Below, in pieces: positions 15,308-48,141 of a stretch of DNA of 64,000 bases. Position numbers and translations under genes: made by a program. Origin of the DNA: Gemmatimonadota bacterium (GTDB lineage Bacteria > Gemmatimonadota > Gemmatimonadetes > Longimicrobiales > Gaopeijiaceae); NCBI GenBank assembly GCA_028874995.1, contig JAPPGM010000001.1, forward strand, positions 4,871 through 68,870, given 5' to 3'. Every line of letters begins with the position of its first letter. The first letter of the stretch is position 1. The notes under the pieces were generated by a model. That model made no database searches and had not been told where the DNA came from. It saw only the letters and a list, made by a program, of their open reading frames with translations.

Positions 15308-16036
15308 CTACAACTTCCCCAGAAGGTCGAGCAGGCGCAGTTTCCACACCCGCCACACGGCCTCGCGGATGATCCTGCCGGACATCTTCGATTCGCCGCT
15401 GTCGCGTTCGGTGAAGACGATGGGAACCTCCCGCAGGGTGAATCCCGCCCGCCAGGCCCGTAGCTTGAGTTCGATCTGGAAGCTGTACCCGTTCGACTGG
15501 ATCTTCTCGAGTCCGACCGTTTCCAGCACCCTTCGGCGGAAGGCGTTGAAGCCGCCGGTGGCGTCGTTGACGGGCAGGCGGGTGATCATGCGGGCGTACC
15601 ACGATCCGAAGAGGCTGATCATCAGCCGCCTGAGCGGCCAATTGACGACCGTGATGTTGCCCCCGACGTAGCGCGATCCGACCGTGACGTCGACGTCCTC
15701 GAGGGCCGCGACCAGGGCCGGGAGACGGTCCGCGGGGTGGGACAGGTCCGCGTCCATCTCGATCAGAACATCGAAGCCATGCTCCAGTCCCCACCCGAAG
15801 CCTGCCACGTACGCCGCGCCCAGACCCTGTTTGCCCGGGCGGTGGAGCACGTTCACCCGCTCATTCCGGGACGCCATCGCGTCGGCCACATCCCCGGTCC
15901 CATCGGGGGAGTTGTCGTCGACCACCAGGATGTGGAAGGCGTCGCCCTGAGCCAGGACCAGCGGCACGACGCGCGGCAGGTTGTCGCATTCGTTGTAGGT
16001 GGGGACGATCACCAGGACGCGCTTCCCGGCGCTCAT
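15308..16036 (-). CDS. Polyprenol monophosphomannose synthase-like glycosyltransferase (GT2)
   Basis: 242 residues with GT2 motifs: VLVIVPTYNECDNLPRV, VVDDNSPDGTGD, HRPGKQGLGAAY, MDADLSHPAD (the DxD metal site) and the RYVGG / INRxxS-like region (SRYVGGNITVVNW). Lacking C-terminal membrane helices, it matches the soluble Dpm1/Ppm1 type that moves a hexose from a nucleotide sugar to polyprenyl phosphate. The product would serve membrane glycosyltransferases such as the YfhO-like protein in the same operon. ATGA overlap with the flippase-like gene. Confidence 0.85.
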   Translation of the reverse strand: MSAGKRVLVIVPTYNECDNLPRVVPLVLAQGDAFHILVVDDNSPDGTGDVADAMASRNERVNVLHRPGKQGLGAAYVAGFGWGLEHGFDVLIEMDADLSHPADRLPALVAALEDVDVTVGSRYVGGNITVVNWPLRRLMISLFGSWYARMITRLPVNDATGGFNAFRRRVLETVGLEKIQSNGYSFQIELKLRAWRAGFTLREVPIVFTERDSGESKMSGRIIREAVWRVWKLRLLDLLGKL

Positions 16037-17100
16037 GGCGTGCCCCCGGGGGCCGGTACGGCGGCCTCGGTGTCGGCCTGGGCGGAAGAGATCGCGCCGG
16101 GCTCGGCACCTGTCCCGGGGGTGGTGGGGCCCGACACCGCGGGCCGGCGCAGGACGAGGGCGCCTGCCGCAGCCCCCAACAGCTCGGCGGCCGTGATCCA
16201 GACCCGCTGGAGAACGGCAAGCACGACGCTGGGCTCCATTCCGAGGACCGGGGTCAGAAAGAGGGTCAATCCGGACTCCCGGATGCCGATTCCCCCCGGA
16301 GCGATCATGACCACGTACCCCATGAAGTACGCGGCCGCAAACGCCGTGGCCCCGACGCCGAAGCCGACATCCAGGCCGATCCCCCGGCTCAGGCAGACGA
16401 ATGCGGCACCGTGGACCAGCCAGTTGGCGATGTAGCCGGGAAGCAGGCGAAGCAGATTGCGGCCACTGGAGTCCGGCAGCTCACCGGTGTGGCCGCTTCG
16501 CCGCAGGACCCACCGGAGCAGGGCCCCTGCCCCACCGAAGTACAGAAACCCGGCCAACCCGGCCACGATCGCCACGCCCACCGCAATCTTCCACGCCTCG
16601 GAGGGACCCGCCCACCAGACAGCCACCCACACCCCCACCGCAGCCGCGCCCAGCAGGTTGACCATCTGCGCCGTCACCGCCGCCCCCGTCGCGCGCACCC
16701 CGGACATGCCCCTGCGGCGCGCCAGCACGGCTACCCCCGCGAGCGCCAGAATCTTGCCCGGCACATACCGGCCCAGATTCGCGATCAGGAGTATCGCGGC
16801 CCCCTCGGCCACCCCCACCCTCCGTTCCCCGAACTCCGCCAGATTCCGCGACCACAGCACGGCCGCGATGCCGAACGTCACGAAGAGGAGCGCCACGGAG
16901 AGTACCAGGTACGGCGCGTTCAGCCGCACCAGCCCCCAGTCGGTGACCGTTCCCACTTCGCCCAGCCTGATCCCCGCACCACGCAGAATCAGCCACGTGA
17001 CGCACACGGTGAGGACCAGCTTGACCGGCAGCACCCACCACCGTCTCCGTGCCACCCGGCCCCCCTTCCCCCCCTCCCCCGCCGACTCTCGACCGCTCAT
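16033..17100 (-). CDS. UPF0104 / lysylphosphatidylglycerol-synthase-like flippase-type membrane protein
   Basis: 355 residues with about eight transmembrane helices and the LPG_synthase_TM pattern (LVLSVALLFVTFGIAAVLWS; NLGRYVPGKI; MIAPGGIGIRESGLTLFL). The G-R-Y-x-P-G-K and PGGIGxRE elements are diagnostic of this family, often found beside Dpm1-like enzymes and thought to help move lipid-linked sugars or lipids across the membrane. ATG 17100 overlaps the YfhO-like stop; an upstream in-frame start at 17127 is possible but would overlap further. Confidence 0.8.
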   Translation of the reverse strand: MSGRESAGEGGKGGRVARRRWWVLPVKLVLTVCVTWLILRGAGIRLGEVGTVTDWGLVRLNAPYLVLSVALLFVTFGIAAVLWSRNLAEFGERRVGVAEGAAILLIANLGRYVPGKILALAGVAVLARRRGMSGVRATGAAVTAQMVNLLGAAAVGVWVAVWWAGPSEAWKIAVGVAIVAGLAGFLYFGGAGALLRWVLRRSGHTGELPDSSGRNLLRLLPGYIANWLVHGAAFVCLSRGIGLDVGFGVGATAFAAAYFMGYVVMIAPGGIGIRESGLTLFLTPVLGMEPSVVLAVLQRVWITAAELLGAAAGALVLRRPAVSGPTTPGTGAEPGAISSAQADTEAAVPAPGGTP

Positions 17101-19541
17101 CCCGACCTTCGCCCAAGCGGCAGCCACGCGGGCAGGCCGCGCACGAACGACAATCCGAACAGAAGGACCGTGATCGCCGACGCGACGATGCTGAGCCGCA
17201 GCGCGCTCTTCACCGTCGGCGCCGTAAACCGGAGTGTGACCGTGTGCTCACCCGCCGACGGGATCTCCACGGCCTGGAGCGTGAGATTGGCCCTGCGCAC
17301 CTCGGCGGGCTCACCGTCGATATCGGCCACCCAGCCCGGGAACCAGTTCTCGGACACGACCAGCAGCGCCGCGCCGGTCGTGGTGACGCGCAGGCGGCGC
17401 TCGTCGGGATCGTTGAGTTCCCAGGTGGCGGTGCCGGTGACGGACGGATCGGGCGCAAGCGACGCGGGCTCGGCCAGGACCGCCTCGCGCGAGGGATCGA
17501 ACGCGGCCGACAGGATCCTCGCCAGAGCGGCATCATCGTCCAGGACCGTGGCCGCACCGACCAGCCAGGCCTTGTCCAGCCCGGGATACGCGTAGACCGC
17601 CTCGACGCCACGCGGCGTCCGCGCGGTGCTGACCGCCTGAGCCCCCTCCCAGGGAGGACCTCCCGCCGCCTGGAGCGGCCAGGCCAGGTACTTGACGTTC
17701 ATGATCCTGAGCACGTTGGGGTCGCGGCTATTGCTGCCCTGCCGCACGCTGGCCTGGAGTCCCAGGAGCGTCCGGTACCGCGCCAGGTCGTTGGGGTGAT
17801 GCCCGACCAGAATGTCCAGCCCATGCATCGCCAGGTCGACGTTCTGCTCGCTGCCGCGCAGGTCCGCGACCCGGAACGGCTGGTCGCCGTCGCGGCGGGC
17901 CTGCAGGAAGCGGATGTTCTCGTCCGGGGCGGCCCATGCGTGAAAGTCCAGCGTGCGGATGAACGCCCGGTCGATCCGGCCGAGATCGACGGCGACCAGC
18001 GCCGCCAGACCCGCCAGCCCGGCCGTGAGGGGAATCCTGCCCCGGCGCACCGCCCAGATCCCCGCGCCCGCCAGCCCGGCGATCAGGAAGGCGATGCCGA
18101 ACCCCCGCGTGATGAACGGCGCGGCCGCCTCCAGCGCCGCCATCTGGCGCTGTCCGGCGTCGTCGTAGATCGTGTTCGTCCAGATGTCCGTCAGTGCGCC
18201 GGACGCCTGCAGCAGCGCCCCCAGCAGCAACAGCCCCACGAAACCGAGCACCACCCGCCCGCGCCGCGTCCGCAGGAACGGTTCACGCCCCGGCGCCTCC
18301 CGCGCGAGGTCGTCCACGCCCATCGCGAACAGCGTGGTCACCCCGAAGCTCACCAGGAACATGCAGATCGCGGGGACGCGGAAGAGGCTCATCCCCGGCA
18401 CGACCTCGTAGAAGATCCGCCACACGGGCGTATGCGTGCCGAGGGCATAGAGGAGCCAGACCCCGCTCATTCCGGCCATGAACCACCTCGGTCCCCTGCC
18501 CCGCCGACCCAACAACCCGAAGAGCGCCAGCACCACGACCGAGACGCCGAGGTATTCGTGGTTGAGCTTGATCGCGTTGCGTCCCCAGTACGTGCCGCGC
18601 GCCCACTCGGCGTCGGCGTTGCTGTTGCCGACGAACTCCGGAACGACCAGCGACACGGCCTCTTCCGGGTGGAAGGACCAGGAGCTGGAGTAGGCGATCC
18701 GTTCTTCGGGGGTCGCCTCGACGGTGGTCGCGGTACGCCGGGAGAACTCGCCCACGTAGGAAGCCGCGGGCAATACCTGGAACGCCGCGATCCCTCCCCC
18801 CAGGAGCGACGCGCCCAGGAAGACCCCGAAGGGCAGCAGCGCCCGCCGGGCACCCGCCGCCCGACTGGCGCCGCCGGTCGAACGCCACATCCGTACTCCG
18901 CGGAAGAGGGCGTACGCGCCGGCCGAACCGAAGAGGAAGTACGCGGTCTGGAACTGGGTGACGAGGCAGACCACGGCGACCGCGCCGGCCATGCCCGCGA
19001 CCGTGCGGCCCGACGGCGCCCGCAGGACCGCCTCCGTGGCCCAGAAGACCAGAGGGGTCAGCGCGGCCACCATGAGCTTCCCGTCGTTCCCCGGCAGGAC
19101 CAGGGTGACCATGACCGGGGCCATCAGCCAGCCGAGCCCGCCGACCGTCGCGCCCACGCGGCTCAGCCCCAGGCTGCGCGCCCACCCGTACATGAAGAAA
19201 CCCGCCGCGAGCACATGCACGACCATCCTCCACCCGACCGCGCGATAGCTGTCCATGACGAAGTAGAGGAGGCTCGTCGGGTACACGCCGTCCGCCGCGG
19301 AAATGGACTCGAGCGTCGGCACGCCGCCCAGCAGCCGCGGGGCCCACAGGGGGAAGTCGCCCGCCGACAGCCGCTCGGCGAAGAAATCCCGTCCCATGTA
19401 CCCGAGGGCGAGGATGTCGTCGCCGTGGAGCATCCGGTCCGAGAAGATGAACTCGCCGAAGAGGGCGACGGTGGCCAGCAGGAACAGGCTGCCGGGGAGC
19501 CACCACTGGATGGGGACGGGGTTCCGTTCTTTGCCGGCCAT
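17097..19541 (-). CDS. YfhO-family membrane protein (GT-C-like glycosyltransferase)
   Basis: 814 residues. About 12-14 transmembrane helices fill residues 10-540, starting WWLPGSLFLLATVALFGE, with the early luminal loop GDDILALGYMGRDF and SAADGVYPTSLLYF typical of YfhO/GT-C proteins, then a soluble C-terminal beta-rich region (about 560-780) and a last helix. YfhO proteins glycosylate lipoteichoic acid in Firmicutes using polyprenyl-phosphate sugars; in a diderm the acceptor is unknown, but the adjacent Dpm1-like enzyme could make the donor. I place the start at MAGKERNP (19541) and not at an upstream ATG with a poor N-terminus. First gene of the seven-gene operon. Confidence 0.8.
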   Translation of the reverse strand: MAGKERNPVPIQWWLPGSLFLLATVALFGEFIFSDRMLHGDDILALGYMGRDFFAERLSAGDFPLWAPRLLGGVPTLESISAADGVYPTSLLYFVMDSYRAVGWRMVVHVLAAGFFMYGWARSLGLSRVGATVGGLGWLMAPVMVTLVLPGNDGKLMVAALTPLVFWATEAVLRAPSGRTVAGMAGAVAVVCLVTQFQTAYFLFGSAGAYALFRGVRMWRSTGGASRAAGARRALLPFGVFLGASLLGGGIAAFQVLPAASYVGEFSRRTATTVEATPEERIAYSSSWSFHPEEAVSLVVPEFVGNSNADAEWARGTYWGRNAIKLNHEYLGVSVVVLALFGLLGRRGRGPRWFMAGMSGVWLLYALGTHTPVWRIFYEVVPGMSLFRVPAICMFLVSFGVTTLFAMGVDDLAREAPGREPFLRTRRGRVVLGFVGLLLLGALLQASGALTDIWTNTIYDDAGQRQMAALEAAAPFITRGFGIAFLIAGLAGAGIWAVRRGRIPLTAGLAGLAALVAVDLGRIDRAFIRTLDFHAWAAPDENIRFLQARRDGDQPFRVADLRGSEQNVDLAMHGLDILVGHHPNDLARYRTLLGLQASVRQGSNSRDPNVLRIMNVKYLAWPLQAAGGPPWEGAQAVSTARTPRGVEAVYAYPGLDKAWLVGAATVLDDDAALARILSAAFDPSREAVLAEPASLAPDPSVTGTATWELNDPDERRLRVTTTGAALLVVSENWFPGWVADIDGEPAEVRRANLTLQAVEIPSAGEHTVTLRFTAPTVKSALRLSIVASAITVLLFGLSFVRGLPAWLPLGRRSG

Positions 19542-19803: not shown

Positions 19804-20697
19804 ATGCCGCTCGCCTCCCTCCAACTTCGAGATGGGGTCCCCCTCAAGCACGAGCGCGAGACCGTGTTGCAATCGAAGGTCTTCCGGGAGATGAAAGCGT
19901 TTTCCGAGGGGTTCCTGGAGAGGAACCGGGATGTCCTTGCGGGCTACGCTGCCAAGTGGGGGGCGGACAACCCGCTCCATTCGTGGAGTCGGCAATGGGA
20001 GTACCCGTACGTGTTCGCCAGGGTGGCCGAAGTGGTGCGAGCGAATCCGCGGGCACGAGTGCTGGACGCGGGCTCGGGCGCTACCTTTCTGCCCTTCTAT
20101 CTCAAACGCCGTTTCGAGGGTACGACGGTCGCCTGCTGCGACACGGACGAAACGCTGACGGACGTGTTCGCGTCGCTCAACCGCAACATGGGCGCCGATG
20201 TCGAGTTCTCGGCCGCGGACATCAGGGCGCTGCCCTACGGCGACCGATCGTTCGATCTGGTCTATTGTGTTTCCGTGCTTGAACATACGGACAGCTACGA
20301 AGACATTCTGAACGAGTTTTCGAGGGTCTCGAACGGGGGCGGGCTGGCGATCACCTTCGATGTCAGCCTGGATGGCACGCGAGACATGCGCCTGAAGGAT
20401 CTGGACAGGATGTTGAAGGCGATGGCCATCGTTTTCGACAAGGATCCGGACCTGTGCCGTACCGTGAGATCGGAACTGTCGAATCCCGACATCGTTACCA
20501 CCCACGCGGTCGACCCGGAACTCCTGCCATGGCGAGGCCCGCCGCTTCTCCACCGCCTCAAGTCATCCCTGGCCAACCGCCGTCTCGTCCGGTGGCCGCC
20601 GCTCCTGACCGTCTGTTGCCTGAGTGGAGGCCGCTTCCCCACCGCGGCGGCGAGCCGGGAGCCCACCCGCGGGAAGCGATCCGCAACCAACTCATGA
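19804..20697 (+). CDS. Class I SAM-dependent methyltransferase
   Basis: 297 residues. The AdoMet-binding glycine motif is VLDAGSGATFLPFYL (about 80-94), with the acidic residue after strand 2 (CCDTDE) and motif III/IV LPYGDRSFDLVYCVSVLEHT. The pattern is that of Methyltransf_11/25 enzymes acting on small molecules or sugars. First gene of the plus-strand cassette that includes FkbH-like, ACP, deacetylase and acyltransferase genes, so a glycan or acyl-ACP substrate is likely. The last 40 residues are Arg/Ser/Pro-rich and probably not part of the fold. Confidence 0.8.
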   Translation: MPLASLQLRDGVPLKHERETVLQSKVFREMKAFSEGFLERNRDVLAGYAAKWGADNPLHSWSRQWEYPYVFARVAEVVRANPRARVLDAGSGATFLPFYLKRRFEGTTVACCDTDETLTDVFASLNRNMGADVEFSAADIRALPYGDRSFDLVYCVSVLEHTDSYEDILNEFSRVSNGGGLAITFDVSLDGTRDMRLKDLDRMLKAMAIVFDKDPDLCRTVRSELSNPDIVTTHAVDPELLPWRGPPLLHRLKSSLANRRLVRWPPLLTVCCLSGGRFPTAAASREPTRGKRSATNS

Positions 20698-20782
20698 ATG
20701 CCGACCGGGAGCCCGGCCACCGCTATCGATGCCGGATTACCGTGACCCCGGACCCCCGCCCCACTCACGGCTTCGAATCCGG

Positions 20783-22642
20783 ATGGGTGAGGTGAGCGCG
20801 TCCCCGGAGCCGCCTGCGGACGGCCATCCGTCATCACCCGCCGAGTGGGGCGCCATTCTTCGCCGGGCTGCAGCGGAGCTGGTCGGCGCCCCGTCCCACG
20901 CGAAGGCGAACGAACTGTTCGGGCTCGGCAGGCAGGCACCGGCGGCGGTCGAGGGGCTTCGCAGCGTCAACGTCGGCATCCTCAGGAACGCGACCGTGGA
21001 GCCGTGGCTGCCCGAATTGTACGCGGCACTCCTCAACGAGGGGATCAAGGCGGAGTTCAGCGTGGGCGACTTCGCGGTCTACGAGCGCTACGCGGCCTCT
21101 CCCCGTGAGCTCCGCGACCCGCCCCCGGACATCATTCTGCTGTACTTCGAACCCGCCTCCTTGGTGGGGGATGCCCGCCACGATCCGCCGGAGAAGACCG
21201 CGGAGTCGATTCTGGCCCGCGTGGACGCGGTCGTGACCGGACTGCTGAACGGCACCGCCGCGACGATCGTCGTCTCCAATCTCGCCCCCGACCCCATCCG
21301 GTTTCACCAGCTGCATGCCGACCAGGACCCCGGAAGCTGGCCGCAGTTGCGAAGACAGGTAAACGCCGCATTGCTGGAACGGCTCCACGCCCAGCCCCGG
21401 GTGGCGATCCTGGACCTCGGCCGGATCGTCGCCGAGTACGGGGCCGCGCGAGCCTTCGATCCCCGCATGTACCTCATGGCCCGGAACCCCTTCGCGGTGG
21501 ACTTCCTGCCCCGCCTGGGCCGGGCTTTCGCGGCCATCGTGGCCGCCGTGGCGGCCCCGCCGAGAAAGTGCGTGGTCGTGGACTGCGACAACACGCTGTG
21601 GGGCGGGGTTCTGGGCGAGGACGGGCCCGAACGTGTCGCGATCGGCACGGACTATCCCGGCGAGGCCTACCGCGAGTTCCAGCAGTTCCTGGCGGGGCTC
21701 GGCCGCAGGGGGTTCCTCCTGGCGATCAACAGCAAGAACAACGAGGACGACGTGCTGTCCTTTCTGGCCGAATCACCGGACATGGTCCTGCGTCCCGGGG
21801 ACTTCACGGCGCACCGCATCAACTGGGAGGACAAGGGGCAGAACCTGGCCGAGCTCGCGGAGGAGATGAACATCGGCCTCGATTCGATGATCTTCGTGGA
21901 CGACAGCCCGGTCGAGTGCGCCAGGATCTGCTCCGCGTTCCCTGAAGTCCTGGTCGAACAGTTTCCGGCGAATCCGGCCGACATTCCCGGGTTCATCGGC
22001 CGCATGGGGGGAACACAGCGCCTGCGCGTCGAGGCGGAGGACCTGAAGAGGGCGCAGTCTCTGCGAGCGAACGCCGGGCGTGAGAGTCTGAAGCGGAGTG
22101 CGCCCGACCCGGAGACCTTTCTCCGCAGCCTCGAGATCAGGCTGGTGATCGAGCGGCAGAACCGGGCCGCGATTCCCCGGGTGAGCCAGCTCACGCAGCG
22201 CACCAACCAGTTCAATCTGACCACGAAACGCTACACGCCGGGCGACATCGAGCGCCTCATGGATGACGGCATCGTGTACACCATGAGCATGGGGGACCGC
22301 TTCTCCGACTACGGGATCGTGGGTGTGGCGATCGTGACGGATATACGGACCCACAGCTGGGAGATCGACTCCTTCATGTTGAGTTGCAGGGCCTTCGGCC
22401 GGAATATCGAACGTGAACTGCTCGCCGCGGTGCTGGCCGACGCCGCCGACGCGGGCGCCGGAATCGTGCGGGCCCGCTACGCCGCCACGGCGAAGAACGG
22501 CATGACCCGGGACTTCTTTCCCGCAAACGGATTCATCCGGACCGAACGGACCGACGGGGAAACCCGGTTCGAAGCGGAGCCCCGCGACCGTTCCGCGGAA
22601 ACCGGCCGGGAACTCTATCAGGTATCACACAGGGGTCATTGA
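20783..22642 (+). CDS. FkbH-like HAD-IIIC protein with C-terminal GNAT domain
   Basis: About 619 residues. The N-terminal FkbH domain (VNVGILRNATVEPWLPELY, about 60-230) is followed by a HAD-IIIC domain with VVVDCDNTLWGG (DxDxT nucleophile, about 265-275), INSKNNEDD and FVDDSPVECARI, then a GNAT-like region with the family marks SQLTQRTNQFN and SCRAFGRNIE. In polyketide pathways FkbH proteins dephosphorylate 1,3-bisphosphoglycerate and load a glyceryl group on an acyl carrier protein. A stand-alone ACP gene starts 1 nt after this stop, so the same chemistry is likely here. Start at 20783 chosen because residues upstream are low-complexity; a GTG at 20792 is possible. Confidence 0.85.
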   Translation: MGEVSASPEPPADGHPSSPAEWGAILRRAAAELVGAPSHAKANELFGLGRQAPAAVEGLRSVNVGILRNATVEPWLPELYAALLNEGIKAEFSVGDFAVYERYAASPRELRDPPPDIILLYFEPASLVGDARHDPPEKTAESILARVDAVVTGLLNGTAATIVVSNLAPDPIRFHQLHADQDPGSWPQLRRQVNAALLERLHAQPRVAILDLGRIVAEYGAARAFDPRMYLMARNPFAVDFLPRLGRAFAAIVAAVAAPPRKCVVVDCDNTLWGGVLGEDGPERVAIGTDYPGEAYREFQQFLAGLGRRGFLLAINSKNNEDDVLSFLAESPDMVLRPGDFTAHRINWEDKGQNLAELAEEMNIGLDSMIFVDDSPVECARICSAFPEVLVEQFPANPADIPGFIGRMGGTQRLRVEAEDLKRAQSLRANAGRESLKRSAPDPETFLRSLEIRLVIERQNRAAIPRVSQLTQRTNQFNLTTKRYTPGDIERLMDDGIVYTMSMGDRFSDYGIVGVAIVTDIRTHSWEIDSFMLSCRAFGRNIERELLAAVLADAADAGAGIVRARYAATAKNGMTRDFFPANGFIRTERTDGETRFEAEPRDRSAETGRELYQVSHRGH

Positions 22643-22643
22643 C

Positions 22644-22880
22644 ATGACTGGCGACGCGTCACAGGTGCTGGAGCGGATCTTCCGCAGCGTGCTCAAGGCG
22701 GGACCGGACACGGAGATCACAACCCTGTCCGTGGACTCGCACGGCGGGTGGGACTCCATCGCGCACCTGAACCTGATACTGGCCGTCGAACAGGAGTTCC
22801 GGTTCATGATGACGCCGGAGGAAGCGACGGCGGCGCGTTCCTTCGGGGACATGCTGGCGCTGGTCGAGAGCCGGCGCTGA
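22644..22880 (+). CDS. Stand-alone acyl carrier protein of the glycan cassette
   Basis: 78 residues with the four-helix ACP pattern and the phosphopantetheine serine S38 in GGWDSIAHLNLI (the D-S-L position reads D-S-I). It is clearly different from the housekeeping AcpP at 47902-48141 ([13 protein letters not shown]). Its ATG follows the FkbH-like stop by one base, which makes the two almost certainly a pair: the carrier for the glyceryl-type unit made by the FkbH-like enzyme. The hexapeptide acyltransferase two genes downstream is a candidate to move that unit to a sugar. Confidence 0.85.
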   Translation: MTGDASQVLERIFRSVLKAGPDTEITTLSVDSHGGWDSIAHLNLILAVEQEFRFMMTPEEATAARSFGDMLALVESRR

Positions 22881-22906
22881 GCGGGCACCAGCGGGAGACC
22901 ACGGCC

Positions 22907-23791
22907 ATGTCACCGCGCAGGCGCGGAACATTCGCCTTCCGCCTGGATGTCGACTCGCTCATCTGCCTCGAGCAGGGGATTCCCAACCTGCTGAGGCTGG
23001 GTGAGCGGCACGGTGTCCGCTTCACCTTCTTCGTGAACATGGGACGCAGTTTCAGCTGGCGGCACACGATCGCGAATGTTCTCCGGCGAAGGCAGGACGG
23101 ACGCAGAGCCGGTCCGGCAAGCACGCCGGTGCCGTACAAGCTGTCGGCTGCCCGCAAGCTGGGCCGCGGCGGCACCCTGAGAACGGTGGTCTTCAACCCG
23201 CGCCTTGGTCGGCGGTACCGCGCGGCGCTGGACTTGTTGCACCGGGAGGGCCACGAACTCGGACTTCACGGAGGCTCCAACCATCCGGCGTGGCAATACC
23301 GCCTGGATGAACTCGGGGATGACGGGCTCGAGCGGCTCTTCCGCCCGGCATTCGAGGAGTTTCGCGATCGCTACGGGCATCCGCGGGGATTCGCGAGCCC
23401 GGGATTCCGCTACAACCAGGCGGTCCTCGGCCTCCTCGACAACGAGGGCTTCGAGTACGCCTCGGACATGGCCGGCGAGGTTCCCTTCCGCCCCGGGCGC
23501 CGCGATGGAGCATCCCGTCATACGCACTTCCAGGTACCGGTCAACGTCATCGGGGAGCGCCGGGTGCCCGTCATCGAGCAGGGTCTCGCCCGCGGCCAAT
23601 CGGACGGGCGCATCGTGCAGGACGCCGTCGAACGAATCAGGGCCCGCCCCTTCGCCCTCATGTACGGCCACCCCTACGTCGAGGGCGTTCACACCCGGCA
23701 GCTCGCGGCGATACTATCAGAGGTGGCGGACGACTACGACGTGGTCACCGTCAAGGAATACCTGCGGCGCTGGAAGGAGACGACGGCCTGA
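22907..23791 (+). CDS. Divergent polysaccharide deacetylase (NodB-like)
   Basis: 294 residues. NodB-type features: FRLDVDSLICLEQGIPNLL at the N-terminus (first acidic motif, normally TFDD), FTFFVNMG, EGHELGLHGGSNH (metal-binding histidine motif, H-x4-H spacing instead of HSxxH), SPGFRYNQ and a late YGHPY. It probably removes an acyl group from a sugar, but the changed first and second motifs leave activity open. Start ATG at 22907 with GGGAGACC upstream. The next ATG follows its TGA directly. Confidence 0.75.
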   Translation: MSPRRRGTFAFRLDVDSLICLEQGIPNLLRLGERHGVRFTFFVNMGRSFSWRHTIANVLRRRQDGRRAGPASTPVPYKLSAARKLGRGGTLRTVVFNPRLGRRYRAALDLLHREGHELGLHGGSNHPAWQYRLDELGDDGLERLFRPAFEEFRDRYGHPRGFASPGFRYNQAVLGLLDNEGFEYASDMAGEVPFRPGRRDGASRHTHFQVPVNVIGERRVPVIEQGLARGQSDGRIVQDAVERIRARPFALMYGHPYVEGVHTRQLAAILSEVADDYDVVTVKEYLRRWKETTA

Positions 23792-24274
23792 ATGGGCAGG
23801 ATCATACGCTATCTGGCTTCGATGCTGCCCTTCCCGCTGGGCGTGCGTGCTTCACTGTACCGTCTCAGCGGTGTGAGGATGGGGGCCAGGGTGACGATCG
23901 ACCGCAACGTCCAGGTTACCAGGGCCGACAGGGTGGTGATCGGTTCGCGTGTGACCATCGCCAACGCGGTCTCGATCCTCGGCGAAATCACGGCGGTCCA
24001 CTCTCACCTTGAACGGGAGTACGGGATCACCAAAGCCGCCCCGGTGGTGATCGAGGACGATGCGTACATCGGTGTCAAGGCGACGATCCTGCCGGGTGTT
24101 CGCATCGGCCGAATGGCGACGGTCGGGGCGAACACGCTGGTGATTTCGGACGTGCCCCCGTACGGTGTGATCCTGGGGGTACCGGGGCGCGTGATGATGG
24201 TACGTCCCCATGCGTCGGCAATCGAGGAATCGGCGGCTACGGAAACCCCACCGCGAGCCGAGTCCCCCGGATAG
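23792..24274 (+). CDS. Hexapeptide-repeat (left-handed beta-helix) acyltransferase
   Basis: 160 residues built of LbH hexapeptide repeats (VTIDRNVQVTRADRVVIG, VVIEDDAYIGVKATILPGVRIG, ATVGANTLV) and the closing GVPGRVMM. The family includes maltose/galactoside O-acetyltransferases and sugar O-acyltransferases such as WbbJ. A conserved-type histidine sits in ITAVHSHLERE. Likely cytoplasmic sugar O-acylation. Coupled to the deacetylase (TGA directly followed by ATG). Its 3' end overlaps the convergent methyltransferase gene by 38 nt. Confidence 0.85.
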   Translation: MGRIIRYLASMLPFPLGVRASLYRLSGVRMGARVTIDRNVQVTRADRVVIGSRVTIANAVSILGEITAVHSHLEREYGITKAAPVVIEDDAYIGVKATILPGVRIGRMATVGANTLVISDVPPYGVILGVPGRVMMVRPHASAIEESAATETPPRAESPG

Positions 24275-25091
24275 CCCGCACCCTGGTGTGCCGTGAGCAC
24301 TCGTCGACGGCCCGGCTGACATCTTCCAGCATCCCGTAGTCGTGCCAGACAATGGCTCCCCCGGGACGGATCACCCGGAGCGCGTTGCGGGTGTCGGAAA
24401 CGGCGTACCTGTACGAGTGGCACCCGTCGATCAGGATGAAGTCGTATGGGCCGTGCTCGTCCCAATCGAACTCGGCGGAGTCGCCCCATAGCTGGGTGAT
24501 CCTTTTCGCGTGCGACGAATCGAGAAACTGCAGTCCCGTGCGGCTCCTCACACCGGCGTTATCGTGAATGCCCGGAACGTCGAGCACATAGCGCCGATCC
24601 CAGTCGGGCGGCAGGTCCAGGGTGAACACGTGTGCGGCGGAGGGGGCGTTGGCCGCCAGGTTGATCGTCGTGTTGCCCTCGAAGGTGCCGATCTCCAGGA
24701 GTCGCCGGGGTTCAAGGAAGGCGACCATCGCGCCGACCGCCAGCACTTCGGCCGGTGTCATCGAGAGCAGCGGATCCCGGTCATAGGAGTGGACGACACG
24801 CACCTCGGTGCGTTCGATGCCCGGGAAAAGCGCGTTGAGCGGCTCCCGCTCGAGTTCCCCGAAGGACCAGCGGATGACACGCCTGAACTCGGCGTCCGGG
24901 GCCTTTCCGGCGAAGGGGCCGTAGCGGGGCCAAAGCATCTTCCAGGCCGCGACCGGATTTCGCACGGTTTTCCTGACCGCATTCCTCAGGCGCCTCAGGG
25001 TCTGGGTGGCGCGACCGCCGCCACTGCCGGCGCTGCGTCCCTCCCATGGCGGCGGCGACCTGCCCGCAGAATCCGTCGATTCGATGCTCAC
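24237..25091 (-). CDS. Class I SAM-dependent methyltransferase (Methyltransf_24 type)
   Basis: 284 residues. After a basic N-terminal region, LLEIGTFEGNTTINLAANA is the AdoMet-binding motif, HVFTLDLPPDWD the acidic loop, and DFILIDGCHSYRYAVSDTRNALRVIRPGGAIVWHDY the motif IV-VI block typical of cephalosporin-hydroxylase/Methyltransf_24 enzymes, common in polysaccharide clusters. The start region lies 15 nt downstream of a tandem AT-rich 21-nt repeat (25107-25148), which occupies its likely promoter. Confidence 0.8.
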   Translation of the reverse strand: MSIESTDSAGRSPPPWEGRSAGSGGGRATQTLRRLRNAVRKTVRNPVAAWKMLWPRYGPFAGKAPDAEFRRVIRWSFGELEREPLNALFPGIERTEVRVVHSYDRDPLLSMTPAEVLAVGAMVAFLEPRRLLEIGTFEGNTTINLAANAPSAAHVFTLDLPPDWDRRYVLDVPGIHDNAGVRSRTGLQFLDSSHAKRITQLWGDSAEFDWDEHGPYDFILIDGCHSYRYAVSDTRNALRVIRPGGAIVWHDYGMLEDVSRAVDECSRHTRVRAIRGTRLAVGFP

Positions 25092-25106: not shown

Positions 25107-25148
25107 AATGTAACGTACAGTTTACATAATGTAATGTTCGATTTACTT
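25107..25148. repeat. Tandem pair of 21-nt AT-rich quasi-palindromic units
   Basis: Units at 25107-25127 and 25128-25148 match at 16 of 21 positions and abut exactly. Each has the form AATGTAA-N7-TTTAC. The same two-unit architecture occurs at 40747-40788 and 55153-55194. Position just upstream of the methyltransferase start (25091, minus) fits an operator; overlap by 6 nt with the 3' end of the GT4 gene fits an interspersed repeat that lands at gene ends. Confidence 0.7.
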
Positions 25149-26270
25149 TTCGGCGGTCTTGTGGCCCATCCCCCCCACCAACTCCCCGTACACCTCTTCG
25201 TGACGGTCCACAAGCCGCTCGTTGCTCCACCGGGCCACCACCGTCTCCCTCCCCCTCTCCCCCCTCCCACCCAGCCCCCCGTCCGCGAGCAATTCGAGCG
25301 CCTTCTCCGCCAGCGCTTCCGGATCCCCCGGCGGGAACAGCCCGCCCACCGAATCGTTCACGATCTGGGGCAACCCGCCCACCGCCGACGCCGCCACCGG
25401 CAGCCCGCACGCCATGCACTCCAGCGCCGCCACCGAGGTGGCCTCCACGAGCGACGGAAACACCGCCATGTCCCCCGAGCAGAGCAGACCCGGCATCTCG
25501 GCGTGGGGCCGCGCTCCTAGGAATTCGATCCGGTCCGCCACCCCGAGTTCTGCCGCCAGCGCCTCCAGCCTGTCCCTTTCCGGCCCGTCCCCGATGACGA
25601 TCACGTCCACATCCGCTCCTGCCGCGATCATCGGCAGCGCCCGCACGAAGTACTCGACACCGTTCTTGGGGAAGAGTCTGCGCGGCACCACCAGGCGGCG
25701 CCGGCCATCCGTACGCGGGATCGCGCCTCGGACCGGCCTGAAGATCCCCGTGTCGACCCCGTTTACCAGAACCTCGACGGAGATGGTTGGACCAAGACTT
25801 TCGCCGACATCAGCTATCTCCTTGCTGGCAGCGAAATTGTAGTCACTCAGCTCGATCAGTTTGCCAAGTGCCGGGGCGACGACGGGGTTGGCGGCCAGGC
25901 GCAGAAAATGGGAAGTGTGTATAGTACACACCAATGGTGTACTCATGCCCGCCAGCGCCAGCGCGCACGGGAGGAGCGACGGGAAGGCCTGCGCGTGGAC
26001 CACATCCGCGCCCGCGACGGCCGTCCGGGTGCGCGGCGTGGAGCCCACCGCGTGCATGGACCAGCCCAGCGGCGTGCGCGACGGTAACGGGGTGCGGTAT
26101 ATGTTGATACCGTCCATGACCTCATGTAGTGCCAGACCCGGTTGGGAGAGCGAGGTGACGACGGTGACCTCGTGTCCCCGCGCAACCAGTCCGCGGCAGA
26201 GGTAGTGGACGTGACTCTCCAGTCCCCCGACCTCCGGCGGGAAGTACACGCAGTGGACGACGATCTTCAC
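25143..26270 (-). CDS. Glycosyltransferase family 4 (GT4)
   Basis: 375 residues, GT-B fold. N-terminal glycine-rich loop FPPEVGGLESHVHYLCRGLVARGHEVTVVT; C-terminal nucleotide-sugar site RLFPKNGVEYFVRALPMI, DVIVIGDGPERD, EFLGARPHAEMPGL and FPSLVEATSVAALECMACGLPVAAS (the Ex7E motif), all classic for GT4. GTG start at 26270 overlaps the wecB stop (GTGA). A 40-nt AT-rich patch at about 25905-25945, coding TPLVCTIHTSHFL, contains two overlapping perfect 7-bp inverted repeats. Donor and acceptor sugars unknown. Confidence 0.88.
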   Translation of the reverse strand: MKIVVHCVYFPPEVGGLESHVHYLCRGLVARGHEVTVVTSLSQPGLALHEVMDGINIYRTPLPSRTPLGWSMHAVGSTPRTRTAVAGADVVHAQAFPSLLPCALALAGMSTPLVCTIHTSHFLRLAANPVVAPALGKLIELSDYNFAASKEIADVGESLGPTISVEVLVNGVDTGIFRPVRGAIPRTDGRRRLVVPRRLFPKNGVEYFVRALPMIAAGADVDVIVIGDGPERDRLEALAAELGVADRIEFLGARPHAEMPGLLCSGDMAVFPSLVEATSVAALECMACGLPVAASAVGGLPQIVNDSVGGLFPPGDPEALAEKALELLADGGLGGRGERGRETVVARWSNERLVDRHEEVYGELVGGMGHKTAEK

Positions 26271-27433
26271 GGTGCGCTCCAGTCTTCGAGCCGGCGGGAA
26301 GCTCCGGTGAGTTCCGCGAGGAGGATGTCGGCGATGCGCTCGCCGGCGCGGCCGTCGCCGTACGGGTTTCCCGCCGGGCAGGCCGCGCGCCCACCGCTCA
26401 GGTGGGCGGTGGCCTCGGCGAGGATCCGGTCCGCGTCGGTGCCGACCAGGGTGGCCGCGCCCGCGCGCACCCCCTCCGGGCGCTCCGTCACCTCTCGGAG
26501 GACGAGCGTATGCACACCGAAGGCGGGCGCCTCTTCCTGGATGCCGCCCGAGTCGGTCAGTACCAGATTCGCGCGGCCTAGGACGGCCACCAGGTCGCCG
26601 TAGTCGAGAGGATCGGTGAGGTGGACCCGGGGGCGGCCGCCCAGGATGCGGCGGGCGGGCTCCAGGACGCGGGGATTCGGGTGCACGGGGTAGAGGATCT
26701 CGATGTCGTCGAACCGCTCCGCCAGCGCGGCGACCGCGCCGAAGACGCGCTCCAGGGGTTGGCCGAAAGACTCGCGGCGGTGGGCGGTCAGGAGGACCAG
26801 GCGGCGGTTCGATTCGGCCAGTTCGGCGGCGCAGCCGTTGCGGACGGTGGCTGGACGGGCCCGCATCTGGTGCAGCGCGTCGACGACGGTGTTCCCGGTC
26901 ACGAAGATCCGCTCCGCCTCGACCCCCTCGGCCTCCAGGTTCTCCGCCGCCTCCCGGGTCGGCGCGAAGCAGAAGTCGGAGATCGTGTCGGTCATGCGGC
27001 GGAGCATCTCCTCCGGGAAGGGCGACCACTTCCGGCGGCTGCGGAGCCCCGCCTCCACGTGCGCCAGCCTGCCCTGCTGGAAGAAGGTGACGACGCCGGC
27101 GAAGAAGACCGTGGCCGTGTCGCCCTGCACGATCGTCACATCCGGCACGAAGTCCTCCGCGACCTCGCGCAGGCCGTCCATGCACGCGTGTCCCACGTCG
27201 TAGAGGCTCTGGCCCGGCTTCATCAGGTTGAGGTCGTAGTCGGCCTCGAGCCCGAAGCCGTCCAGCACCTGGTCCACCATCTCCGTGTGCTGTCCGGTGA
27301 GCGCCAGCCGGTGGACACACCCGCCCCTTTCGCCCAGCGCGCCGATGACCGGCGCCATCTTGATCGCCTCCGGGCGGGTGCCGATCACCGACAGGACGCG
27401 GGGCCGGGGGGGGATTCCGTCCGCGGGCCGCAC
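26267..27433 (-). CDS. wecB: UDP-N-acetylglucosamine 2-epimerase (non-hydrolysing)
   Basis: 388 residues. Motifs: VIGTRPEAIKMAPVI, LTGQHTEMVDQVL, VQGDTATVFFAG, HVEAGLRS, TVVDAL and LTDSGGIQEEAPAFG with VTERPEG. The enzyme interconverts UDP-GlcNAc and UDP-ManNAc, feeding ManNAc or ManNAcA into surface polysaccharide. GTG start at 27433 overlaps the upstream GT2 stop (TAGTG). The next gene is a GT4, so the ManNAc-derived sugar is probably used within this locus. Confidence 0.9.
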   Translation of the reverse strand: MRPADGIPPRPRVLSVIGTRPEAIKMAPVIGALGERGGCVHRLALTGQHTEMVDQVLDGFGLEADYDLNLMKPGQSLYDVGHACMDGLREVAEDFVPDVTIVQGDTATVFFAGVVTFFQQGRLAHVEAGLRSRRKWSPFPEEMLRRMTDTISDFCFAPTREAAENLEAEGVEAERIFVTGNTVVDALHQMRARPATVRNGCAAELAESNRRLVLLTAHRRESFGQPLERVFGAVAALAERFDDIEILYPVHPNPRVLEPARRILGGRPRVHLTDPLDYGDLVAVLGRANLVLTDSGGIQEEAPAFGVHTLVLREVTERPEGVRAGAATLVGTDADRILAEATAHLSGGRAACPAGNPYGDGRAGERIADILLAELTGASRRLEDWSAP

Positions 27434-28464
27434 TACCGCTCCCCCGCCCCGCTTCCCCGTCCCCCGTCCCCCCGCTCCCGCCGCATCGCGTCCAGCTCGT
27501 CGTGGACCGACGCGATCATCTCCCCCAGGAGCCCCGCCGCGAAGCACAGCACGCCCACCGTGACCAGCAACACCACCAGATACAGCAGCGGCCGAAACCC
27601 CTGCCCCATCACGAAACGCAGGAAGAGCGCCGCCAGGCCCGTGAGCACCCCGGCCGCCATCAGGAACACCCCGGGCAGGCCGAAGGCCACCATCGGCTTG
27701 CGGGAGAAGCGCAGCTGGAACCAGACGGCCATCAGATCGAGCACGCCCCCGACGATGCGGCTCTTCCCCGAGTACTTCGGCTCGCCGGCGCGGCGGGGAT
27801 GCAGCTCGATGTCGATCTCGGTGGCGCTGAACCCCTTCCGGTACGCGAGCACCACGAAGAACCGGTGCCAGTCGTGGCGCAGCCGCACCGCCTTGAGCAC
27901 GTCGGACCGGAAGGCCTTCATGGAGTTGAGGTCGCTCACGGGCACCTTGAAGATGCGGCGGCTGAGCGCGTTGTATATCGACGAGACCGCCCGCTTGTCG
28001 TAGCGCCCGACCTTCCGCCCGGTCACGATGTCCCACCCTTCCTCGAGCTTGTCCAGGTAGCGGGGAATCTCGGCCGGGAGGTGCTGGAGGTCGGCGTCGA
28101 AGAGGACCAGGTACTTCCTGTCGGTCGCCTCGGCGGCCGTGAGCAGCGCCTCGGTCTTGCCCAGGTTGACCCGGTGGCTGAGCACGCGCAGCCGGTCCCA
28201 ACCGCCGCCCTCGGACCGGGCCAGCTCGGCCGTTCCGTCGGTCGAGCCGTCGTCCACGACGATGACCTCTCCGGTCAGCCCGAACTCCTCGAAGGCGGCG
28301 CGCACCTCGGGGATGAGGTGGGGGATGTTGGGTGCCTCGTTGTAGGCGGGCACGACGAGCGCGAAGTCGTGGTAGGCGCGCGGAGGGGAGGACGGCGCGT
28401 GGTCGTCGCGGGCCATTCCGGGAAAGCCGCCGCCGGATTCATGTGTCGAGGGAGTCGTCCGCAC
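27433..28464 (-). CDS. GT2 glycosyltransferase with two C-terminal membrane helices (GtrB/DPMS-like)
   Basis: About 343 residues. GT2 catalytic domain: FALVVPAYNEAPNIPHLI, EVIVVDDGSTDGTAE, NLGKTEALLTAAE, LFDADLQHLPAEI (DxD). The C-terminus has two hydrophobic helices (LPGVFLMAAGVLTGLAALFLRFV and PLLYLVVLLVTVGVLCFAAGLLGEMI), as in polyprenyl-phosphate glucosyltransferases (GtrB/ArnC type) that charge the membrane carrier with a sugar. The reading begins at a GTG, 6 nt after rpoN; an ATG at 28416 is an alternative start. Confidence 0.8.
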   Translation of the reverse strand: MRTTPSTHESGGGFPGMARDDHAPSSPPRAYHDFALVVPAYNEAPNIPHLIPEVRAAFEEFGLTGEVIVVDDGSTDGTAELARSEGGGWDRLRVLSHRVNLGKTEALLTAAEATDRKYLVLFDADLQHLPAEIPRYLDKLEEGWDIVTGRKVGRYDKRAVSSIYNALSRRIFKVPVSDLNSMKAFRSDVLKAVRLRHDWHRFFVVLAYRKGFSATEIDIELHPRRAGEPKYSGKSRIVGGVLDLMAVWFQLRFSRKPMVAFGLPGVFLMAAGVLTGLAALFLRFVMGQGFRPLLYLVVLLVTVGVLCFAAGLLGEMIASVHDELDAMRRERGDGGRGSGAGER

Positions 28465-47901: not shown

Positions 47902-48141
47902 CTATTCGGCGTTCTTCTTGATGTAGGAGATGGCGTCGCCAACGGTACGCATCCGCTCGGCGTCCTCATCGGGAATGTCGATCCCGAACTCCTCTTCGAA
48001 CGCCATGACCAACTCGACGGTGTCGAGGGAGTCGGCACCAAGGTCGTCCACGAACGAGGCATCCGAGGTCACCTTGTCGGCTTCGACCCCGAGCTCCTCG
48101 ACGATGATCTCCTTGACCCTGGCTTCCGTTGTGTCGGACAT
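47902..48141 (-). CDS. acpP: Acyl carrier protein (housekeeping)
   Basis: 79 residues. The phosphopantetheine site is [30 protein letters not shown], the standard AcpP sequence. Carries acyl chains for FabD/G/H/F and PlsX in the same cluster. ATG at 48141. Confidence 0.96.

Follow-up and report, generated by a model that had tools for sequence, protein, structure and literature searches.

Genes and features of the locus

Five open reading frames, for a methyltransferase, an FkbH-like protein, an acyl carrier protein (ACP), a deacetylase and a hexapeptide transferase, had been annotated at positions 19804-24274 of the window (the whole stretch of 64,000 nucleotides analyzed). All five were verified at their coordinates, including the single nucleotide between the FkbH stop and the ACP start. 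The initial annotation had treated them as one unit. This holds for FkbH, the ACP, the deacetylase (DEAC) and the hexapeptide acyltransferase (HEXAP). The methyltransferase at the front is unlinked, and two further members had been overlooked: a second methyltransferase (MT24) and a MaoC-like hydratase. The features of the region are as follows:

15308-16036, minus strand: DPM-synthase-like GT2 (PF00535)
16033-17034, minus strand: LPG_synthase_TM/UPF0104 membrane protein (PF03706)
17097-19541, minus strand: YfhO-like membrane protein, probable GT-C (PF09586, 30.5 bits; cut-off 28.5)
19804-20697, plus strand: front class I methyltransferase, a neighbor unlinked to the cassette (PF08241, 58.4 bits)
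20695-20756, plus strand: MaoC-like hydratase gene remnant that retains roughly its first 20 codons (aligned with relatives L031 and L033 at the protein and DNA levels)
20783-22642, plus strand: FkbH, predicted glyceryl-ACP synthase, with FkbH_N, HAD-IIIC and the C-terminal region of the FkbH domain (TIGR01686, PF21211)
22644-22880, plus strand: dedicated ACP, attachment Ser38 (conserved WDS motif)
22907-23791, plus strand: DEAC, ArnD-like CE4 deacetylase (phmmer, fold match of the AlphaFold model)
23792-24274, plus strand: HEXAP, left-handed beta-helix (hexapeptide) acyltransferase (PF14602/PF00132, above cut-off)
24237-25091, minus strand: MT24, class I SAM methyltransferase (PF13578, 64 bits; cut-off 26.3)
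25143-26270, minus strand: GT4, conserved border of the cassette site
26267-27433, minus strand: WecB, conserved border block
27433-28416, minus strand: ArnC-like GT2, conserved border block

For FkbH, the most plausible start is at 20783. The protein scored 288.7 bits against NCBIfam TIGR01686 (curated cut-off 146.65) and 37.8 bits against Pfam FkbH_N (PF21211, cut-off 27). Active-site changes that block loading had been considered in advance; the catalytic motifs are intact. The HAD catalytic residues D267, D269, S317, K351, D373 and D374 are invariant across 36 FkbH rows, as is C535, the Cys of the SCR motif. We would guess that C535 carries the acyl group. The sole solved structure matching FkbH is Bacteroides fragilis BF1531 (PDB 3slr, E = 4e-40), which was deposited as uncharacterized; the match is limited to residues 187-403. 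The ACP retains the attachment motif W-D-S38, with D37-S38 invariant, and scored 18.1 bits against Pfam PP-binding, slightly below the cut-off of 20.8. It shares 23% identity with the housekeeping AcpP (47902-48141), i.e., it is a distinct protein. AcpS is encoded in the genome.

DEAC matched the Pfam polysaccharide-deacetylase family weakly, and its identity as a deacetylase was confirmed across family searches. Its metal motifs had been described as altered from those of NodB. Instead, they are the motifs of ArnD and are not degenerate. A phmmer search yielded ArnD (8t0j, E = 3.7e-7). ArnD was also the top fold match of the AlphaFold model (pLDDT 84), with Z = 25.1 and 2.5 Å over 239 residues, ahead of other CE4 chains (Z 16-22, highest 22.4). 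Residues D14/D16, H121, H126 and H255, the FASPG loop and YGHPY all have their counterparts in the ArnD motifs. In the alignment, the three His residues are invariant and D16 is nearly so, with one row starting later. As both metal motifs and fold agree with ArnD, we rejected the assignment of DEAC as a dead enzyme. Orthology with ArnD was likewise rejected, since DEAC scored 60 bits against the ArnD equivalog NF011923 (cut-off 382).

HEXAP exceeds the cut-off for PF14602/PF00132. Its best NCBIfam matches are acetyl-CoA enzymes (e.g., EpsC and WcaF), all under their cut-offs. No His was invariant in the alignment at the position where the catalytic one is normally found, and the predicted structure was poor (pLDDT 47).

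The distribution of the front methyltransferase excludes it from the cassette. It occurs in 3/10 FkbH-positive and 2/13 FkbH-negative genomes of the genus, and an intact copy is found in the FkbH-less relative L087. The cassette-linked methyltransferase is MT24, whose gene overlaps that of HEXAP tail to tail; the gene finder favors a start at 24965 over the longer 24237-25091 reading. MT24 had matches (E < 1e-100) in nine of the ten FkbH-positive genomes, whereas the 13 FkbH-negative genomes had none. In the tenth FkbH-positive genome (G053), the contig stops about 0.6 kb past HEXAP.

In most relatives, an intact MaoC-like hydratase gene with a DxNPxH motif lies directly upstream of FkbH (54.2 bits against PF01575 for the protein of one such relative). 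In the window, about 20 first codons are left, and the remainder, including the GDxNPxH motif, is deleted. This deletion could in principle be an assembly error. A different, internal deletion in relative L032, which takes out the catalytic motif and leaves FkbH, ACP, DEAC and HEXAP in place, argues for real decay. With the gene broken in both loci, the hydratase step is probably dispensable.

Co-inheritance and rearranged copies

The inheritance of the cassette was compared across 23 genomes of the same genus. FkbH is present in ten of these, and HEXAP in exactly the same ten. DEAC presence matched that of FkbH in all 18 genomes sampled (18/18), and YfhO was found in all 23. Among the genomes lacking FkbH, L095 and L096 exemplify the empty site, with YfhO directly adjoining GT4. 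The random chance of two genes agreeing on 10 of 23 genomes is about one in a million (1/C(23,10)), a value that ignores kinship. Because of this kinship, and with only about three changes of cassette state required in the tree of sampled rows, this value overstates the case, and few independent events underlie the co-occurrence of FkbH, HEXAP and DEAC.

The 13 cassette FkbHs form a single clade (support 100/100) among the 39 FkbHs of the phylum. Two of the cassette loci belong to other genera of the same family. L038 has the order YfhO-ACP-DEAC-HEXAP, in which YfhO and ACP share 4 nt; FkbH is encoded on the opposite strand, and neither MT24 nor MaoC is present. In L039, FkbH-ACP-DEAC lies opposite HEXAP-MT24, and MaoC is absent. 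Of the five genes proposed earlier, the four core genes recur in both loci, in rearranged order. That this gene content survives rearrangement is the strongest argument for a joint function of FkbH, ACP, DEAC and HEXAP. In these related Gemmatimonadota, the cassette is an accessory block that is gained and lost as a unit.

Some copies show further changes. One assembly (G343) contains two diverged copies of the cassette (L091 and L092), one with a shortened deacetylase; given the 6% contamination listed for this assembly, they could stem from mixed strains. In several relatives, the cassette is interrupted or directly followed by leucine-rich-repeat-like genes and other insertions (L034-L037 downstream of HEXAP; L032, 4913-7936). 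Relatives L099-L107 derive from the metagenome bins RHO, SB, APA and COS, which we take to be samples of marine sponges; the genus may therefore live in association with sponges.

Glycan neighborhood and related systems

The cassette site lies between YfhO/UPF0104/DPMS-like genes on one side and GT4/WecB/ArnC-like genes on the other. The former flank is present with or without the cassette. Beyond the ArnC-like GT2 lie rpoN and putative lptB/A/C and kds genes, the latter two groups named by inspection of their sequences. Given this position, among lipid-linked-sugar genes and near lpt/kds, the probable target is an amino sugar that is lipid-linked or associated with LPS. In L067, from another family, the YfhO/DPMS and ArnC/RpoN borders flank a separate set of FkbH-ACP, a Methyltransf_24 protein and a hexapeptide protein; in the tree, its FkbH is only distantly related to those of the cassette. 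YfhO is the border of the insertion site and a candidate downstream partner.

Bacillus YfhO is proposed to act in extracellular sugar transfer from a polyprenyl carrier (PMC5836110). As in the multi-component glycosylation systems of Gram-positive polymers (PMC5836110), a GT2 and a YfhO-like protein are found close by. Both the polyprenyl-P-type GT2 (PF00535) and YfhO (PF09586) exceed their cut-offs within the same gene block, and their activities are predicted from these matches. The present neighborhood differs in being of the Gram-negative LPS type. No GtcA/GtrA-type flippase was found among the locus proteins scanned, and the UPF0104/LPG_synthase_TM protein (PF03706) takes the place of GtcA.

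DEAC-like proteins were also found without FkbH, so DEAC does not have to feed the ACP. Distant DEACs are encoded in a GT4-DEAC-WecB-NAD epimerase-methyltransferase-AsnB-like operon that recurs in Gemmatimonadales without FkbH (L113-L125). At the equivalent chromosomal site of genus g7 (L093 and L094, the same contigs as L127 and L131), an ArnD-like deacetylase lies beside a formyltransferase-domain protein (PF00551), not beside FkbH-ACP. These contexts suggest that DEAC strips an N-acyl group from a WecB-derived sugar, which may be lipid-linked.

FkbH-ACP is a known supply module of polyketide synthases (PKS), e.g., Mad7/Mad8 (PMC7489565). The glyceryl-ACP module of the tetronate/methoxymalonate antibiotics and the present cassette share an FkbH above the TIGR01686 cut-off and an adjacent stand-alone ACP. 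The cassette locus differs in having no PKS, FabH-like or dehydrogenase partners; neither of the two dehydrogenases of the methoxymalonyl-ACP operon was found among the genes next to FkbH-ACP. A deacetylase, a hexapeptide transferase and a glycan neighborhood are found instead. The absence of PKS and NRPS noted earlier is correct for the window region, which contains only fatty-acid synthase genes (about 46-52 kb), but not for the genome, since contigs C80 and C164, which lie outside the window, carry modular PKS ketosynthase regions. Such regions are conserved, at about three per genome, in 22 of the 23 genomes of the genus, independently of the cassette.

FkbH-ACP pairs occur in varied settings. 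Within the phylum, the pair in L040, L043, L044 and L053 is accompanied by a GNAT protein and by a second deacetylase-like protein, for which Pfam gave no match. Hexapeptide proteins neighbor other pairs, and that of L041 lies within an exosortase locus. ACP-FkbH is located near an MBOAT acyltransferase and VOC-family genes on Sinorhizobium meliloti pSymB and on a Rhodobacteraceae plasmid (L132, 4658-9692; L133, 7059-10826). FkbH is part of an exosortase glycan cluster in Aquisphaera and accompanies a PKS in Methylosinus. These contexts indicate that a glycan-related setting is common, although not the sole one. In the open-access literature searched, we found no functional study of an FkbH-ACP module for polysaccharide, LPS or glycan.

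A partial parallel comes from Campylobacter jejuni. Its flagellin glycan locus carries the FkbH-domain gene cj1302 (PMC7099621), and flagellin pseudaminic acid bears di-O-methylglyceric acid (PMC3958885). The gene may be connected to this substituent. The likeness lies in the presence of an FkbH gene in a glycan locus, in a species whose surface glycan bears a chemically established methylated glyceric acid; the glycan genes differ from those of the cassette.

Proposed acyl exchange on an amino sugar and its alternatives

The initial annotation had proposed carrier-dependent acylation of a glycan. Its five-gene set was wrong, but the idea itself fits the intact FkbH motifs, the co-inheritance of four genes, the LPS/lipid-linked-sugar neighborhood and the ArnD-like DEAC. 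The reading we favor, with belief and doubt about equally weighted, is that this accessory cassette replaces one acyl group by another on an amino sugar belonging to a lipid-linked glycan associated with LPS. FkbH, assumed from its family membership to use 1,3-bisphosphoglycerate, would remove the phosphate and load a glyceryl group on the dedicated ACP. In relatives, the MaoC-like hydratase may first alter the acyl-ACP. DEAC would take an N-acetyl (or N-formyl) group off the sugar supplied by the WecB/GT4/ArnC-like enzymes, probably on polyprenyl phosphate. HEXAP could then take the acyl group from the ACP and attach it to the liberated amine or, alternatively, to a hydroxyl. MT24 may O-methylate the acyl group or the sugar. 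Finally, export of the modified sugar and its attachment to the acceptor would fall to YfhO and its partners. The glyceryl group, the acceptor, the acyl-transfer step and this order of steps are our suggestions from gene families and context, whereas the families themselves, the intact motifs, the joint inheritance and the location were observed. The DEAC-like proteins without FkbH, the missing invariant His of HEXAP and the small number of independent events weigh against this reading.

Alternatively, DEAC and HEXAP may form a deacetylation/acetylation pair that uses acetyl-CoA, with FkbH-ACP (and MT24) adding a separate group via a transferase outside the list above (YfhO, or one encoded elsewhere). 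The DEAC homologues without FkbH or ACP agree with such a pair, as do the acetyl-CoA enzymes among the sub-threshold matches of HEXAP. However, HEXAP is confined to genomes with FkbH, and no other acyltransferase co-travels with the cassette in the loci examined. We regard this explanation as unlikely, though more probable than the other alternatives.

The acyl group may also be a dehydrated or reduced derivative (pyruvyl, lactyl or 2-methoxyacryloyl-like) formed on the ACP by the MaoC-like hydratase, rather than glyceryl. The intact hydratase that precedes FkbH in most relatives would suit this chemistry. Its loss in the window and in L032, where the other four genes remain, and its absence from L038 and L039 make a derivative of this kind quite improbable.

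The resemblance to the Arn pathway, which places L-Ara4N on lipid A, suggests a further possibility, namely that the locus yields a free cationic amino sugar on LPS and that FkbH-ACP are unrelated hitch-hikers. The fold and motifs of DEAC are nearest to ArnD, an ArnC-like GT2 and the GT-C-like YfhO are close by, and in genus g7 a formyltransferase sits beside the deacetylase. In contrast to the Arn pathway, the locus has no visible genes for Ara4N synthesis, and the cassette adds an ACP-linked acyl supply. The close DEAC clade (the genus plus L038 and L039) is always accompanied by FkbH-ACP, even when rearranged, which leaves little room for this scenario.

Supply of a C3 starter or methoxymalonyl-type unit in trans to a PKS elsewhere in the genome, for which the known role of the module (PMC7489565) and the ketosynthases on C80 and C164 could be cited, is very unlikely, because modular PKS domains occur in 22/23 genomes regardless of FkbH (including 12 of the 13 without it), the two dehydrogenases of the methoxymalonyl-ACP route are missing from the cassette, and the conserved neighbors are glycan genes.

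Beyond the favored acyl exchange, we tentatively suggest, as a proposition we hold less probable than its opposite, that FkbH-ACP is a general supply module which, in many phyla, channels a C3 acid from glycolysis into envelope glycans, independently of polyketide and peptide synthesis. Here, it would serve the exchange of N-acetyl for glyceryl or methoxy-glyceryl on a lipid-linked amino sugar, followed by YfhO-type placement. As the loading chemistry is best known from antibiotic pathways, the cassette would widen a known reaction and not reveal a new one. If the proposal is correct, central glycolysis would be tied directly to surface-glycan acylation via a carrier protein, and the glyceric-acid substituents of bacterial glycans would have a testable source. 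It would also call for caution in genome mining, since an FkbH gene would not always mark an antibiotic cluster.
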